From Oceanicola sp. S124 (lineage in GTDB: Bacteria > Pseudomonadota > Alphaproteobacteria > Rhodobacterales > Rhodobacteraceae), in contig NZ_AFPM01000329.1 of the NCBI RefSeq assembly GCF_000220565.1, forward strand, positions 1-32,750: a DNA stretch of 32,750 nt, given 5' to 3'. Positions within the stretch are counted from its first letter, which is position 1, and every line of letters begins with the position of its first letter. The position numbers and the translations under genes are program-made. The notes under the pieces are model-generated. The model did no database searches, was not told where the DNA came from, and worked only from the letters and a program-made list of their open reading frames with translations. Positions 13,456-20,030 of the stretch are shown piece by piece.

Positions 13456-15954
13456 TCAGAGCTTGCGCTCGACCTCCTCGCGCTCGAAGATCTCGATGAC
13501 GTCGCCGGGGCGCACATCGTCGTAGTTCTCGAAGGCCATGCCGCATTCCTGGCCCGACTGCACTTCGCTGACTTCGTCCTTGAAGCGCTTCAGGGTCTTC
13601 AGCGTGCCTTCGTGGATCACCACGTTGTCGCGCAGCAGGCGGACACCGGCAGAGCGGCGTGCCACACCTTCGGTGACCAGGCAGCCTGCGACCTTGCCCA
13701 CGTTGGAGACCCTGAAGACCTCCTTGATGTTGGCATAGCCGATGAAGTTCTCGCGTATCTCGTTGCTGAGCAGGCCCGAGGCCGCCGCCTTCACGTCATC
13801 CACCAGGTCGTAGATCACGCTGTAGTAACGCAGTTCCACGCCCTTCTGGTTGGCGCTGTTGCGCGCCGGCGCATTGGCACGGACGTTGAAGCCGATCACC
13901 GGGCAGCCCGAGGCTTCGGCCAGGCCCACGTCGGTTTCGGTGATGGCACCGACGCCGTAGTGGATGACCCGCACGCGGACCTCGTCGTTGCCGACCTTCT
14001 CCAGCGCCTGCACGATGGCTTCGGCAGAGCCCTGCACGTCGGCCTTCACGATGACCGGCAGCTCAGAGACGTTCTCGTCGGCCTTGGCCTTCGCCATCAG
14101 CTGTTCCAGCGTGGTGCCGGCACCGACCAGGCCACGCTTCTCTTTCGAGACATTGTGGCGGTACTCGGCGATCTCGCGGGCCTGGGCTTCGGTCGCGACG
14201 ACGTTCAGGACGTCACCGGCTTCCGGCGTGCCGTTCAGGCCGAGAACTTCGACAGGTACCGACGGACCGGCTTCCTTGACGCGTTCGCCCTTGTCGTTCA
14301 CCAGCGCACGGACCTTGCCGTACTGCTCGCCGACGACGAAGATGTCGCCCTGGCGCAGCGTACCGGTCTGGACAAGCACGGTGGCAACGGGGCCACGGCC
14401 CACGTCCAGCTGGGCCTCGATCACGGCGCCCTGGGCGGCACGATCGGGGTTGGCCTTCAGTTCCAGGATCTCGGACTGCAACGCGATGGCTTCCAGCAGC
14501 TCGTCCAGGCCCTTGCCGGTCAGGGCAGAGACCTCGACGTCCTGCACTTCGCCGGACATCTTCTCGACGATCACTTCGTGCTGCAGCAGCTCGGCGCGGA
14601 CCTTGTCCGGGTCGGCGGCAGGCTTGTCGCACTTGTTGATCGCCACGATCATCGGAACACCGGCGGCCTTGGCGTGGTTGATGGCCTCGATGGTCTGCGG
14701 CATGACCGAGTCATCCGCCGCGACCACCAGCACCACGATATCCGTCACCTGGGCACCGCGGGAGCGCATCGAGGTGAAGGCCGCGTGGCCGGGGGTGTCG
14801 AGGAACGACAGCACGGCCCCGCTTTCGGTGGTGACCTGGTAGGCGCCGATGTGCTGGGTGATGCCACCGGCTTCGCCGGCAACCACCTTGGCGTCGCGGA
14901 TCGCGTCCAGCAGAGAGGTCTTGCCGTGGTCGACGTGGCCCATGATCGTGATGACCGGCGGGCGGCCTTTCAGATCCTCGGGCTTGTCCTCTTCCGCCTT
15001 AATGACGTCTTCGACGTCGGCATCCGAGACACGCTGCACCTTGTGGCCGAATTCCTCGATGATCAGCTCGGCGGTATCGGCGTCGATGGTCTGGTTCTGG
15101 GTGACCATCATGCCGTTCTGCATGAGGGCCTTGACCACGTCGGCGACACGTTCGGCCATGCGGTTGGCCAGCTCGGAAACCACGATGGTCTCGGGCAGCT
15201 GCACGTCGCGCACGACCTTCTCGCGGTTGACCGCGCCGCCCATGGCCTTCTGGCGGGCGCGCTCCTGCTTCCGCTTCATCGCGGCGAGGGATTTCTGACG
15301 GCCGCCTTCGCCACCGGACAGAGCCTGGTTCAGCGTCAGCTTGCCGGAGCGGCGACCATCGTCGCGGCCCTTGTTCCGGCCGCCGCGATCGTCACGATCG
15401 GTCGTGTTGGCGCGCTCGTCGCGCACCGGCATGGCGGGCTTGGCACGGGTCTTGGCAGCGCGGGCGCTGTCATCACCGGGTTCGGCAGGGGCCTGGGCCG
15501 CGGCAACGGCAGCACGCTTGGCGGCCTCGGCCTCTTCGCGGCGCTTGCGCTCTTCCTCGTCGGCCTTGGCCTTGGCTTTCTCCTCGGCCTCGCGCTGCTC
15601 ACGCTCTTTCTGCTCCGCTTCGTCACGGCGGCGCTGGCGCTCTTCCTCGCGTTCCTTTTCCTCGCGGGCGCGGCGTTCGGTATCTTCCGCCTCACGCGCC
15701 TTCGCGGCGGCGACAGCCTTCAGGCGGCGCTCCATTTCGGCATCGGTGATGCCCTTGGGCCGCTTGTTGGGGTCGCCGAGGGCAGGGTTGCCGCCGGATT
15801 TGCCAGAGCCGGCCTTGGGGACGACAACGCGTTTGCGCTTCGTCACCACTTCGACGTTCTTGGTGCGGCCATGGCTGAAGCTCTGCTTCACGTTCCCCGA
15901 GCGGGGACCTCCACCACGAACACCCAGAGTCTTTTTACCGTCGTTGTCGCTCAT
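13456..15954 (-). CDS. infB: Translation initiation factor IF-2
   Basis: IF-2 is the GTPase that places fMet-tRNA on the 30S subunit and promotes subunit joining. Start ATG 15954 (832 residues) is preferred over an in-frame TTG at 15963, because the family begins [12 protein letters not shown] and the purine-rich AAAGGAAG is too close to the TTG. The N-terminal 240 residues are highly charged (Arg/Glu/Ala/Lys repeats, probably a long helix or coiled coil), as usual in alphaproteobacteria. The GTPase domain has G1 GHVDHGKT (339-346), G3 DTPGH (386-390) and G4 NKCD (440-443). C-terminal beta-barrel and fMet-tRNA-binding domains follow, ending [12 protein letters not shown]. It is last in the operon visible here, with a strong terminator behind it. 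A small hairpin (15974-15992) precedes it. Confidence 0.98.
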
Positions 15955-15973
15955 ATTGGCCAATCTTCCTTTC

Positions 15974-15998: not shown

Positions 15999-16589
15999 TC
16001 AGGCACGCAGACCTCGCAGTCTCGCGGCCTCCTCTACAACACGTTTGCTCAAACCGCCAGTTCCTAAGGCGGCGTGTATGACAGTTTCCCGACCGAAGGC
16101 CAAGCCCAGCTCATCCGCGGTAAGCCAGCCGATGAAATTGCCCCGGTGGGGGGTCGAGAGCTTGGACTTGCCGCGCTCGGACCCGTCGCTGGCCTGGATG
16201 AGGGCAGTTGCCTCTTCCTTGGCCAGCATATCTTTCACTTTCTCATATCCGGCGACCGCATCGCCGGACTTGCGCGCCAGCGCCAGAAGCTCGCAGACCC
16301 GCTTGGCCTGAAGGCGTTCGACCAGATCGGCCAGACCTTCGGGCACCGTGACCTGCGTCTTCGCGGACCGCGAAAACAGCTTCTTCTTCGCCGCCGTCTC
16401 GATCGCCTCGCGGGTGGCGCTGACCCAGATGCCCCGGCCCGGCAGCTTTTCCGCCAGATCCGGCACCACTTGGGCGTCAGGCCCCACAACAAAGCGGATC
16501 AGGCCCCCCTTCGGGGCGACCTCACCCGTGACGATGCACTTGCGCTCGGGCCCATCGGCCCGATCCTTTTCTTTTCCGCCGCGGCTCAT
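15999..16589 (-). CDS. ylxR: YlxR (DUF448) RNA-binding protein with L7Ae-like C-terminal domain
   Basis: A 196-residue two-domain protein. The N-terminal YlxR domain (about 12-85) shows [20 protein letters not shown], then [21 protein letters not shown]. The C-terminal part (about 95-190) resembles an L7Ae/L30e-type fold ([20 protein letters not shown], then a segment beginning [19 protein letters not shown]). YlxR proteins are encoded between nusA and infB in very many bacteria and are thought to bind RNA; in some bacteria YlxR acts as a transcription or RNase P modulator. The role in this organism is not known. The ATG lies 21 bp after the nusA stop with a GGAG-like site, so it is part of the rimP-infB transcript. 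Confidence 0.92.
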
Positions 16590-16610: not shown

Positions 16611-18236
16611 TCAAGCCCCGGCCTCGTCGCCGTCTTCGCCCTCGACCTCTTCCAGCTCTTCCGCGTCGGGCTCCAGCTCGGAGGGATCGACCCAGCCCAG
16701 CAGGACACGGGCGGTCATGACCAGCTGCTGTGCCTCTTCAAGCGAGACCTCGAATTTCTCGAGAAGGCCCTCGTCCTTGACGCGCTCGCCGTCGACGGTG
16801 GTCCAGCCGCCAGCCAGTTCCCAGTCGGCGCAGGTGGCGAAATCTTCCAGCGTCTTCACGCCGTCTTCCGCCAGAGCTTCTACCATCTGGGGTGTCAGGC
16901 CGTCGAATTCAATGAGGCTGTCTTCGGCACCCATCTCGCGGGCCCGCTTCAGGGCCGCTTCGGCCTGGGCTTCCAGGTATTCGCGGGCACGGGTCTGCAG
17001 TTCCTGCGCGGTATCCTCGTCGACGCCGTCGATCACCAGCAGTTCGTCCTGCTCGACATAGGCGACCTCTTCGAGGTTGGTGAAGCCTTCCGAGACCAGA
17101 AGCTGAGCGAAGAATTCGTCCAGGTCCAGGGTTTCCATGAACAGTTTGGTGCGGGCTTCGAACTCTTTCTGACGGCGCGCGGATTCTTCCTCTTCCGTCA
17201 TGATGTCGATGTCCAGGCCGGTCAGCTGGCTGGCCAGGCGCACGTTCTGACCGCGGCGGCCGATGGCGAGGCTCAGCTGCTCTTCGGGCACCACGACCTC
17301 GATACGCTCGGCTTCCTCGTCCAGAACCACTTTCGACACTTCGGCCGGCTGCAGTGCGTTCACGAGGAAGGTCGGCATGTCTTCCGACCACGGGATGATG
17401 TCGATCTTCTCGCCCTGCAGCTCGTTCACCACGGCCTGCACGCGGCTGCCGCGCATACCGACGCAGGCGCCGACGGGGTCGATGGAGCCATCGTAGGAGA
17501 TGACGGCGATCTTGGCGCGCGAGCCAGGGTCACGGGCCACGGCCTTGATCTCGATGATGCCGTCATAGATCTCGGGCACTTCCATCTTGAACAGCTCGGC
17601 CATGAACTGCGGATCGGTGCGCGAGAGGAAGATCTGCGGGCCACGGGTCTCGCGGCGCACATCCTTGATGTAGCAGCGGATCCGGTCGTTCGGGCGATAG
17701 GCTTCGCGGCCGATCTTCTCGTTGCGGCGCAGGATGGCTTCGCCACGGCCCACGTCGACGATGACGTTGCCGTATTCCTCGCGCTTGACGACACCGTTGA
17801 TGATGGTGCCGGCGCGGTCCTTGAATTCGTCGTACTGGCGATCACGCTCGGCTTCGCGGACCTTCTGCAGGATGACCTGCTTGGCCGACTGCGCCGCGAT
17901 CCGGCCCATCTCGACCGGGGGCACTTCTTCCACGAAGGTGTCGCCGACCTGCGGATCGGCCATGTACTGCTTGGCCTGCTGGACGGTCATCTCGGCCTGG
18001 TAGTTCTCCAGATCCTCGTCCTCGACCACGGTGCGGACGCGGGTGAAGGTAGCACGGCCGGTCTTTCGGTCGATGCTGACGCGGATGTCCATCTCGGCGC
18101 CGTAACGGCTCTTGGCGGCGCGGGCGAGGGACTCTTCCATCGCTTCGACAACCAGACCGGGGTCGATCATCTTCTCCCGGGCGACGGCCTCGGCAGTTTG
18201 CAGCAGTTCAAGCTGGTTGGCAGAAGTGATTGCCAT
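16611..18236 (-). CDS. nusA: Transcription termination/antitermination factor NusA
   Basis: NusA binds RNA polymerase and nascent RNA, stimulating pausing and intrinsic termination and taking part in antitermination of rRNA operons. The 541-residue protein shows the standard order: N-terminal RNAP-binding domain (about 1-130), S1 domain (about 135-200, [27 protein letters not shown]), KH1 and KH2 (about 200-345, including [20 protein letters not shown] and [18 protein letters not shown]), then two C-terminal helix-hairpin-helix repeats (about 365-510) and an acidic tail. It starts 2 bp after the rimP stop (tight coupling). NusA is known to autoregulate its operon in E. coli, which is relevant to the terminator in the rimP leader here. 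Confidence 0.98.
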
Positions 18237-18238
18237 GG

Positions 18239-18826
18239 TCAGTCCTCCTGGGAACCTTCGTCTTCGGTCTCGATATCGTCGAAGTCGGCTTCATCGATCT
18301 GGCCGGCATCCTTGCGGGCCTTCAGCATTTCCTTGATCAGATCGTCGGTCAGCACCAGCTTGGCATCGGCCAGCCAGTCAAAGTTCAGACCCACGGTGAC
18401 CTCTTCGCCCTGATCCTCGATGTTGATCAGCACGTCCTGCTCCTCGACACCGGCCAGCACGCCCTTGAAGCGCTTGCGCCCCCCGACCAGCTCTGCGGTC
18501 TCGATCCGGGCCTCGTAGCCCTCGTAGGCGTCGAAGTCCTTCAGCCGGGTCAGCGGCCGGTCGATGCCGGGAGAGCTGACTTCAAGGTTGTAGGCCTCGG
18601 TCACGGGGTCCTCGACATCCAGCACCGCGGAAACGGCGTTGGAGATCTTGGCACATTCGTCGACTTCAATCCCGCCATCCGGCCGCTCGGCCATGATCTG
18701 CAGGGTCTTGGTATTGCCGCCCATCAGGCGGATGCGCACCAGCTCGAAACCGAGGTCCTCGATGACGGGACCCACGATCTCGGCCAGGCGGCGGTCGATG
18801 GCGGTCTTGGCGATAAGGTCGGTCAT
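18239..18826 (-). CDS. rimP: Ribosome maturation factor RimP
   Basis: RimP assists late 30S subunit assembly in the cytosol. I choose ATG 18826 (195 residues, [20 protein letters not shown]). A GTG at 18841 would add five residues but directly abuts the T-run of a terminator and has no ribosome site. The N-terminal alpha/beta domain includes [12 protein letters not shown] and the conserved [33 protein letters not shown] (around residue 95) is the family signature; the C-terminal SH3-like domain follows. The usual Shine-Dalgarno is weak (CCGGAT). It is first in rimP-nusA-ylxR-infB. Its promoter and a possible attenuator are at 18842-18948. Confidence 0.96.
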
Positions 18827-18841
18827 ATCCGGTCCGGGCAC

Positions 18842-18864
18842 AAAAAAACGGGCACGCGGCCCGT
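18842..18864 (-). terminator. Intrinsic terminator in the rimP leader (attenuator)
   Basis: On the minus strand ACGGGC-CGCGT-GCCCGT forms a 6-bp GC-rich stem followed by seven T (18848-18842). It ends only 15 bp before the rimP ATG and lies downstream of the predicted promoter, so transcripts must read through it to express rimP-nusA-ylxR-infB. It could alternatively end transcripts from the upstream pip gene, but it would still stand in the operon's path. Confidence 0.75.
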
Positions 18865-18908
18865 CGAATTCCCGGTGGAGCTTCGTTCCCAGAGGGTTCG
18901 ACGCGCCG
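18857..18908 (-). promoter_or_regulatory. Possible antiterminator pairing in the rimP leader
   Basis: CGGCGCGTCGAA (18908-18897 on the minus strand) can pair with TTCGACGGGCCG (18868-18857) at 11 of 12 positions. The downstream partner includes the whole 5' arm of the terminator stem (18864-18859), so the two structures exclude each other. The loop between them holds a small CCC-TCT-GGG hairpin. This is the standard layout of an attenuator; the signal it senses is unknown. Confidence 0.5.
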
Positions 18909-18919
18909 CTGTTGAGGGG

Positions 18920-18948
18920 GATATACGCCCGGTTTCAGCGAATCGCAA
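18920..18948 (-). promoter_or_regulatory. Predicted promoter of rimP-nusA-ylxR-infB
   Basis: -35 TTGCGA (18948-18943), a 17-base spacer, and -10 TATATC (18925-18920) on the minus strand. The start would be near 18913, giving a leader of about 87 bases that contains the antiterminator and terminator elements. From 18949 to 19061 I see nothing else convincing. Confidence 0.6.
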
Positions 18949-19061
18949 GGGGCATGCGCCAAACCCCCTGCGTGAAAGCGCCACGCCCCCGTCAGCCCCC
19001 ATATCATCACCAGGCTGAAAGTACTCCGGGGGGAGCCCGCAGGGCGGGGGGCAGAGCCCCC

Positions 19062-20030
19062 TCAGGCCTTCGCCCGCCGGCCCATCACCTGCACAAGCCG
19101 TGCGGTGATCCCCGGCTCGGACAGCGCATGGCCGGCATGGGGGATCATGTGCAGCTCCGAATGCGGCCAGGCACGGTGCAGTTCCCAGGCCTTGGCGGGT
19201 GGACAGATCATGTCGAAACGCCCCTGCACGATATCCCCGGGGATATGGGCGATCCTGTCCATGTCACGCAGGATCTGACCTTCCTCGATCCAGCCAAGGT
19301 GGGTGAAATAATGGTTCTCCAGCCGCGCGAAGGCACGGGCATACTGCCCAGGAGGCTCGCCGCCCATGCCGTTGCTGGCCACCGAAGCCAGCCCGTTTTC
19401 CCAGACCGACCAGGCGCGGGCGAATCTCACCTCTTCCACCTGGTTGCCGGTGAACAGCCGCCGCGCATAGGCGGCGATGAAATCATCGTGCTCCGCCTCG
19501 GGGATGGGATCGGTGAACCGCGCCCAGGCCTCGGGCCAGAACTTGCCCGCGCCGCCGCCGTAGAACCAGTCCAGCTCTGCCTGCGTCATCAGGAAGACGC
19601 CGCGCAGGGCCAGGTGACGGACACGATCAGGATGGGTCTGCGCATAGAGCAGCGACAGCGTCGCCCCCCAGGAGCCGCCGAAGACGCACCAGGTCTCGAT
19701 CCCCAGCGTCTCGCGGATCTTCTCGATGTCGCGCACCAGGTGCCAGGTGGTGTTGTCCTCGACGCTGGCATAGGGCCGAGAGCGTCCGCAGCCGCGCTGA
19801 TCAAACAGGATGATCCGATAATGGTCGGGGTCGAAATAGCGCCGCATCGCCGGGGAACAGCCGCCGCCGGGGCCACCGTGCAGCACCACCACGGCCTCTC
19901 CCTCGGGGTTGCCGGATTGCTCGACGTACAGCTCGTGCCCCTCGCCGACCGGCAACATGCGCTGGTCGAAAGGATCCAGTGGCGGATACAGCACCTGGCT
20001 TGCGCTCTTTTGCCCCGAGTTTCTATCCAT
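19062..20030 (-). CDS. pip: Proline iminopeptidase
   Basis: An alpha/beta-hydrolase that removes N-terminal proline from peptides in the cytosol (peptidase family S33). The 322-residue length is typical. The oxyanion motif HGGPGGGCSP is at 51-60, the nucleophile elbow GGSWGATLSLLYA places Ser120, and the C-terminal IPHAGHALSEPG supplies the catalytic His (about 306). DQRGCGRSRPYAS (77-89) is strongly diagnostic of Pip. It has no signal peptide. It diverges from ubiG with a 51-bp gap and lies upstream of rimP on the same strand; a 235-bp gap with its own promoter separates them, so it is probably not part of the rimP operon. Confidence 0.95.
   Translation of the reverse strand: MDRNSGQKSASQVLYPPLDPFDQRMLPVGEGHELYVEQSGNPEGEAVVVLHGGPGGGCSPAMRRYFDPDHYRIILFDQRGCGRSRPYASVEDNTTWHLVRDIEKIRETLGIETWCVFGGSWGATLSLLYAQTHPDRVRHLALRGVFLMTQAELDWFYGGGAGKFWPEAWARFTDPIPEAEHDDFIAAYARRLFTGNQVEEVRFARAWSVWENGLASVASNGMGGEPPGQYARAFARLENHYFTHLGWIEEGQILRDMDRIAHIPGDIVQGRFDMICPPAKAWELHRAWPHSELHMIPHAGHALSEPGITARLVQVMGRRAKA

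Follow-up and report, generated by a model that had tools for sequence, protein, structure and literature searches.

A probable Rhodobacteraceae transcription attenuator upstream of rimP-nusA-ylxR-infB, with the RNA 5' end as likely antiterminator

The leader that precedes rimP-nusA-ylxR-infB in Oceanicola sp. S124 is, with high probability, best read as a transcription attenuator in which the 5' end of the RNA acts as antiterminator. We analyzed the stretch of 32,750 nucleotides that contains it, referred to here as the window, and compared the leader with those of relatives. Three parts, a hairpin termed H1, an antiterminator core and an intrinsic terminator, appear to be supported by this comparison. 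The leader is probably a genuine attenuator and a Rhodobacteraceae-specific variant of the known rimP-leader kind. The GGGc..gCCC terminator of rimP leaders was already known; the family-wide H1 and an apparently compensated antiterminator appear to be new.

All features of the window described here lie on the minus strand, in the order prolyl aminopeptidase gene (19062-20030), promoter-like boxes (18948-18920), leader, rimP (18239..18826), nusA (16611..18236), a gene for a ylxR-type RNA-binding protein (15999..16589) and infB, which encodes IF-2 (13456..15963; the ORF as listed starts at TTG). Matches to NCBIfam confirmed the gene names of the operon as first assigned: NF000932 for rimP (287.9 bits), TIGR01953 for nusA (422.4 bits), NF006622 for the ylxR-type gene (258.7 bits) and TIGR00487 for infB (802.6 bits). 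A mechanical ORF call puts the start of rimP at a GTG directly after the T-run of the terminator (18239-18841); relatives align from the ATG at 18826. Among the best 80 of 177 RimP relatives, the nearest to the window's RimP are those of a Rhodobacteraceae MAG (96% identity) and Pseudooceanicola antarcticus (91%), which puts the source of the window near Pseudooceanicola. Directly after the prolyl aminopeptidase gene, at 19028-19061, lies a G+C-rich, inverted-repeat-like GGGGGCTCTGCCCCCC..GGGCTCCCCCC with no T-run immediately following. As a candidate genome-wide repeat it was rejected, being single-copy in its own assembly at up to 3 mismatches.

The -35 box TTGCGA (18943..18948) and the -10 box TATATC (18920..18925), both read directly, are separated by a 17-nt spacer. 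When one mismatch is allowed, this pattern occurs once in the window against an expectation of 0.02; a stricter sigma-70 scan returned 0 promoters in the 2 kb around the terminator. The boxes hold at the coordinates first given for them and recur in relatives: taking the best match in range, a hexamer starting with TA was found within the expected 7 positions in 101/101 leaders and a -35 TTG in 75/101. In 89 of the 101, the first base of the -10-like hexamer lies 12-13 nt ahead of AACAG, and we therefore predict that the RNA starts at or next to AACAG. Judged from its promoter, the transcript of the window leader would start near 18913-18912. The predicted leader up to the ATG is then about 87 nt, in agreement with the length originally proposed, and the predicted terminated RNA about 72 nt.

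For comparison, leaders were collected upstream of the best 80 of 177 RimP relatives and from 30 further loci, found by searching 60 genomes (rimP present in 55). The resulting 110 upstream regions yielded 102 distinct leaders, and 101 of these form alignment A2; L018 was excluded for an insert. That leader (2400-2483, from a Pseudopelagicola MAG) carries an insertion of about 12 nt within H1 that is apparently a duplication. A second set holds 100 leaders from 100 genomes, the better-scoring matches to the covariance model described below, aligned with that model; some species are common to both sets. The leader alignment reveals a common plan: TTGC..-17-TATAT, AACAGCGG, a variable H1, CCACCGG, a spacer, ACGGGCCGC..GCCCGT and a T-run. 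In the window, the 5' box AACAGCGGC (18905..18913) coincides with the predicted RNA start, and the conserved CCACCGG follows H1 at 18872..18878. Over a combined set of 183 leader rows, AACAGCGG is exact in 143 and retains 7 of its 8 letters in a further 24. Some leaders, L040 and L051 among them, depart from the plan. A ribosome-mediated attenuator with a leader peptide was rejected, as no conserved short ORF emerged when ATG starts alone were considered: the window leader has no ATG ahead of the terminator, and 30 of 101 leaders have one in their first 50 nt.

The intrinsic terminator, GACGGGC-CGCGT-GCCCGTT with a T7 run (18842..18865), pairs 18865-18859 with 18853-18847. Its T-run (18848-18842) is followed by 15 nt to the ATG, as a second reading of the letters confirmed. 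By itself the element does not exceed chance, with 1 terminator-like site in 2 kb compared to 0.7 in shuffles. We nevertheless take it as real because it is conserved across leaders: a loose pattern found a match at the corresponding place in 102/102 distinct leaders, the GGG and CCC columns are invariant or nearly so in 101 leaders, and the T-run lies 12-79 nt from the rimP start in the 101 leaders measured.

The initial annotation missed hairpin H1 (18877..18907), which on these comparisons is the best-supported structural part of the leader. The hairpin was first drawn manually and afterwards put to the tests below; RNAalifold alone on A2 gave only the terminator. Within A2, 92.3% of the cells of H1 and the terminator are paired, and these two stems contain 95 double-change cells compared to 32.7 in shuffles, a number reached by 0/500 shuffles. 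Sliding the strands lowered pairing to at most 46.3%. The second leader set behaved similarly (93.7% paired; 108 double-change cells compared to 35.2; 0/500 shuffles), and all 8 pairs of the upper stem of H1 show double changes in two data sets. Additionally, exchanging H1 strands between species weakened the hairpin from -15.3 to -12.2 kcal/mol, and 0/2000 swaps were as good as the native combination (100 of 101 leaders usable). H1 also appears in the predicted fold of the window leader. Its base, GG/CC in the window and CGG:CCG family-wide, has letters in common with the antiterminator core. In some leaders (for example L060, L064 and L040), the TCC of the H1 loop with its flanks seems complementary to GGA-holding letters 5' of rimP. 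Pairing of the loop with the ribosome-binding region was rejected, reaching -7.60 kcal/mol compared to -7.37 in swaps, 297/2000 of which were as good (64 leaders).

The antiterminator first proposed for this leader paired CGGCGCGTCGAA (18908-18897) with TTCGACGGGCCG (18868-18857). Indeed, 11 of these 12 positions can pair, and TTCGACGGGCCG contains the 5' arm of the terminator. Across relatives this pairing divides in two. The part that stands family-wide is a putative core of 5 bp between GCGGC at the RNA 5' end (18909-18905, within the 5' box) and GCCGC at the top of the terminator 5' arm and its loop (18856..18860), indicated by co-changes and predicted pairing. The other part, CGTCGAA with TTCGACG, finds its support chiefly within the genus of the window. 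Core and terminator use bases 18860-18859 in common, so antiterminator and terminator are mutually exclusive. The conserved terminator and an upstream pairing on the same bases sustain the initial reading of two competing folds, likely an attenuator, and covariation across relatives was found both as double changes in H1 and terminator and as co-changes in the core.

In alignment A3 the core is 99.4% paired with no double change, and a slide by 2 columns still pairs 93% of the counted cells. The core is nearly invariant, and ordinary leaders therefore give no covariation evidence for it. Its support comes from deviant leaders, which were sought among the most diverged family members together with A2 (183 rows in total). 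The 3' strand was scored as CCGC in 162 of these rows, CTGT in 8, CTCT in 6 and other letters in 7, although two of the rows scored CTCT (L034 and L041) do contain CCGC. A 5' CAGAGG is accompanied by CCTC in 4/4 rows, and one side alone occurs in 0/183. On a RimP+NusA tree CAGAGG and CCTC each change three times, and 3/3 independent pairs go the same way, a small number (p 0.25). Other deviants are re-paired as CAACAG:CTGTTG (L311, L314 and L315), GAGCGG:CCGCTC (L325) and TCGCGG:CCGCGA (L116).

Scoring the deviants together points in the same direction. For 22 deviants picked by eye, the native combination of 5' end and apex scored 12.8 and exceeded 5000/5000 swaps (mean 10.8). With 15 distinct types lacking the usual apex, 11/5000 swaps matched the native pairing. 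A point against is that combining the same deviant 5' ends with the common apex CCGCTGGC gave 12.5, close to the native 12.8, and with CCGCGCGC 10.7; the deviant apices scored 11.5 with the consensus 5' end. Throughout the 183 rows, GCGG and CCGC occur together in 160, neither in 11, GCGG alone in 8 and CCGC alone in 4; among the one-sided rows at least L298 is due to mis-anchoring. When all core changes were counted on the tree, 4.3 of 8 independent pairs went the same way and 0.2 the opposite way (median p 0.125). Four leaders (L040, L051, L295 and L317) have at most 3 contiguous core pairs. In the CTGTTG group, the pairing takes up a base on both arms of the terminator; these leaders may therefore form a pseudoknot next to a shorter terminator.

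The extension of the core pairs CGTCGAA (18897..18903) with TTCGACG (18862..18868) and has bases 18865-18862 in common with the terminator. In the window's genus (23 leaders), native strands pair at 6.39 of 8 register positions and swapped strands at 5.77, and duplex energy is -9.3 compared to -6.6 kcal/mol; 0/2000 swaps were as good by either measure. The other 78 leaders show a weak effect, with 4.08 compared to 3.77 positions (9/2000 swaps as good) and 77/2000 swaps as good by energy. These swaps and shuffles ignore relatedness. On the RimP+NusA tree, the informative pair in the window's genus changed on both sides in 2/2 independent pairs, a number too small for a test; family-wide, the most informative pair gave 4.4 same and 1.7 opposite of 10 pairs. 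A family-wide extended antiterminator was rejected, with 79.6% of cells paired compared to 78.3% in shuffles (5/500) and covariation of 0.150 compared to 0.138 (21/500). We retain the extension as a likely feature mainly of the window's own genus.

Predicted folds of partial and complete leaders describe how the two structures may compete. When the RNA is cut just 5' of the terminator 3' arm, the core has a mean probability of 0.99 and exceeds 0.5 in 152/152 consensus-type rows (of the 183). The probability that the apex pairs with the first 14 nt is 0.991 natively and 0.284 with the upstream letters shuffled, the native value being higher in all 152. Because the core itself is common to leaders, swapping 5' halves reduces apex pairing only to 0.93-0.96. 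In the full leader the terminator exceeds a probability of 0.5 in 90/152 rows and the antiterminator in 25/152; for the 23 leaders of the window's genus these numbers are 2 and 14. For the window leader, the predicted energies are -32.2 kcal/mol in the antiterminator fold and -22.6 in the terminator fold, a difference of 9.6 kcal/mol in favor of the former, and the antiterminator fold is the more stable one in 34 of 99 leaders, a count that includes a few misplaced constraints. With 55 nt emerged, the best predicted fold of this leader in the window already includes the extension. Compared to 200 shuffles each, the 63-nt and 73-nt pieces of this leader are matched in stability by 0 and 2, respectively; the 55-nt and 88-nt pieces are unremarkable (38/200 shuffles fold as well in each). 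That the predicted default fold varies by clade suggests that a factor or kinetics decides between the folds.

To follow the leader across genomes we used a covariance model, R1, built from the 101 leaders. At E<=0.01, R1 matches 237 of 248 family genomes and 236 of 247 genera. Three of these matches are weak (G029, G141 and G178; E 0.003-0.005); in G141 and G178 neither rimP nor, at E<=0.001, R1 found a match. In G123, rimP is not matched at the locus of the R1 hit (L319). Among the 11 family genomes that R1 does not match, 5 have no rimP match and 6 have rimP, and inspection by eye still recognizes GCGG and CCGC in two of the latter, G128 and G062. Of the loci fetched for primary matches, 76/77 contain rimP. 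Second copies of the leader were rejected as a candidate: 27 secondary matches in 16 genomes score at most 32.3 bits, and rimP is present at 0/14 of those fetched. An order-level sample, made up wholly of members of this family, matched in 121/121 genomes. At class level, 115 genomes were sampled; the two family members among them match, and six others do so weakly (24.7-32 bits; 3 of the 6 loci have rimP). Of 19 class-level outgroups with rimP, 14 were fetched; a terminator-like site lies close to rimP in 9 of these, and inspection by eye found the AACAGCGG/CCACCGG layout in 0/14. Outside the Rhodobacteraceae only the terminator seems to recur.

The rimP-leader, as family RF01770 and as a general GGGc..gCCC motif, was reportedly described by Naville and Gautheret in 2010. 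The part of PMC2965389 devoted to it ranks it as the most ubiquitous of the predicted transcription attenuators, gives it a GGGc..gCCC terminator and names NusA as suspected factor; according to the same part, the general class has no larger conserved element and no visible antiterminator, and some Gammaproteobacteria have a tandem terminator with an antiterminator. The Rhodobacteraceae leader resembles the general class in its position before rimP-nusA-infB, in an intrinsic terminator with a GGGC..GCCC stem and U-run, and in the suspicion that falls on NusA. Unlike the general class as portrayed there, it has a family-wide H1 and a supported core of an RNA 5'-end antiterminator. It thus appears to be a variant of the rimP-leader class and not a typical member. 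To call it an independent attenuator, as the initial annotation did, overstates the case, given that the terminator fits the ubiquitous GGGc..gCCC motif of PMC2965389, at least as the rimP-leader passages there define it, and that terminator-like sites recur in the outgroups. A search with the Rfam covariance model RF01770 (cut-off 47 bits) gave no match at the locus even at E<=10, and two chance-level matches elsewhere in the same genome. Above the cut-off it matched 0/20 genomes, with sub-cut-off matches in 1/20, a class-level outgroup; as a control, it matched 3/14 named genomes including E. coli, 1 of them above the cut-off.

To our knowledge, the NusA attenuator of B. subtilis works without antiterminator structures, and the mechanism of rimP leaders outside Bacillus is unsettled. 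The relevant section of a 2025 review (PMC12288461) treats it as established that NusA regulates its own expression in B. subtilis by stimulating termination within its leader. The Rhodobacteraceae leader shares with this system an intrinsic terminator in the nusA leader, the proposed factor and the direction, more NusA giving more termination; here, by comparison, an antiterminator is indicated and the role of NusA is conjectural. In E. coli, terminators t1 and t2 lie ahead of rimP, and CspA antitermination there is disputed in the part of a cold-shock study that deals with this operon (PMC6511841). Additionally, a passage of PMC7815308 reports that expression of rimP fusions is lowered in a Rho mutant. 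Titles and the beginnings of abstracts yielded no description of a rimP leader in Rhodobacteraceae, the supplements of PMC8632094 and PMC5107571 lying outside this search, and the main texts of two papers on Rhodobacterales motifs (PMC2864571 and PMC8632094; supplements likewise outside) contain neither nusA nor rimP.

Taken as a whole, the following mechanism is in our judgment likely the best explanation for the conserved features. RNA polymerase would start near 18913, and H1 would fold first. As the top of the terminator 5' arm and the loop emerge, GCGGC at the RNA 5' end would pair with GCCGC to form the antiterminator; in the window's genus this helix would be lengthened by 7 bp and displace H1. 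The terminator would form only if its 3' arm displaced the antiterminator helix in time. Read-through would allow expression of the operon, and termination would release the RNA of about 72 nt. This folding order is predicted, and we infer that the balance between the folds is regulated. NusA helps terminator hairpins to form, and it may tip the balance to termination, which would put NusA and IF2 under negative feedback. As main effector NusA is plausible and the single likeliest candidate, an assignment we make tentatively and to which we give somewhat less than an even chance.

It is possible, though rather unlikely, that the attenuator has a sensor other than NusA, with H1 (often with a conserved UCCA loop) and CCACCGG binding a different ligand, such as another product of the operon (RimP, IF2 or the YlxR-type protein), a ribosomal protein, a cold-shock protein or a small molecule. 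H1 is kept family-wide although the terminator alone would suffice for NusA action, and TCCA is present in the loop region of at most 64/101 leaders, in at least 3 of which it is the CCACCGG segment itself. By eye, however, the UCCA loop is missing in most leaders of the window's genus, and few unpaired conserved letters are available for a small-molecule pocket. A precedent for such sensing is the conserved nucleotides at the terminator tip that a portion of PMC8632094 reports for the HMP-PP, guanidine-IV and HRC-8-4 elements, the last a candidate in Rhodobacterales. The rimP leader likewise has conserved letters at its terminator tip; unlike these terminator-embedded elements, it precedes another gene, contains H1, has a tip explained by pairing with the RNA 5' end and has no known ligand. 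As a more speculative form of this idea, H1 with its loop and CCACCGG might be a Rhodobacteraceae-specific sensor for the state of ribosome assembly or of translation, which would bind, for instance, free RimP, IF2 or an intermediate of assembly and thereby gate the 5'-end antiterminator. This is a long shot; if true, a single 72-nt switch would link NusA and IF2 supply with maturation of the 30S subunit.

We consider it improbable that terminator and antiterminator merely fix a constant read-through fraction without regulation. The predicted balance does differ by clade, as would be expected if average output alone were selected. Against this, the near-invariant 5' end and apex and the rewiring of their pairing by compensation suggest that switching itself is selected. 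Less probable again is that termination serves to make a product, the RNA of about 72 nt, which would act in trans as a small RNA derived from the 5' UTR, while read-through would supply the operon. The leader has its own promoter and terminator (the promoter being predicted), a conserved 5' end and conserved unpaired segments, and the same family offers a precedent in UpsM of Rhodobacter sphaeroides, a leader whose description in PMC6238624 includes its own promoter, a terminator and read-through into the downstream operon. UpsM differs from the rimP leader in that, according to that description, it precedes a cell division operon, is 206 nt long and is processed by RNase E. Pairing in cis already explains the 5' end and the terminator loop of the rimP leader, and no such small RNA is named in the searched parts of two small-RNA papers on the family: PMC6238624 has 0 occurrences of rimP and nusA there, and PMC5107571, whose list of 167 RNAs is in a supplement outside the search, has 0 of nusA and 0 of maturation. 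Finally, the element could simply end transcription of the prolyl aminopeptidase gene, rimP being transcribed from a start downstream of it. This would suit a site between two same-strand genes but is hardly credible given conserved promoter-like boxes upstream at near-fixed spacing, the short distance from T-run to ATG and an apex that pairs with the predicted RNA 5' end.

An attenuator with a 5'-end antiterminator, the reading we favor, would concern two core factors, NusA and IF2, in a family that appears to carry a compact version of the rimP-leader. The natural double changes GAGG/CCTC and CAACAG/CTGTTG are ready-made mutants to rebuild; with these and an apparently compensated antiterminator, sensing of its own output by the nusA operon becomes directly testable with laboratory strains.

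The leader alignments could also seed a new RNA-family entry. Rfam searches of the window and of 20 relatives, out of 100 that were fetched (L193-L292), left no family above its cut-off. The small RNA SorX (RF02784; cut-off 46.6 bits) was rejected as an identity for the leader, scoring 18.3 bits at the window with its best alignment over the terminator. Lastly, SorX matches were observed on other contigs of the same genome, at 1501-1571 of L001, 68-131 of L002 and 1501-1566 of L003; two of these, at 71 and 54.4 bits, exceed the Rfam cut-off, and the third, at 32.9 bits, falls below it.
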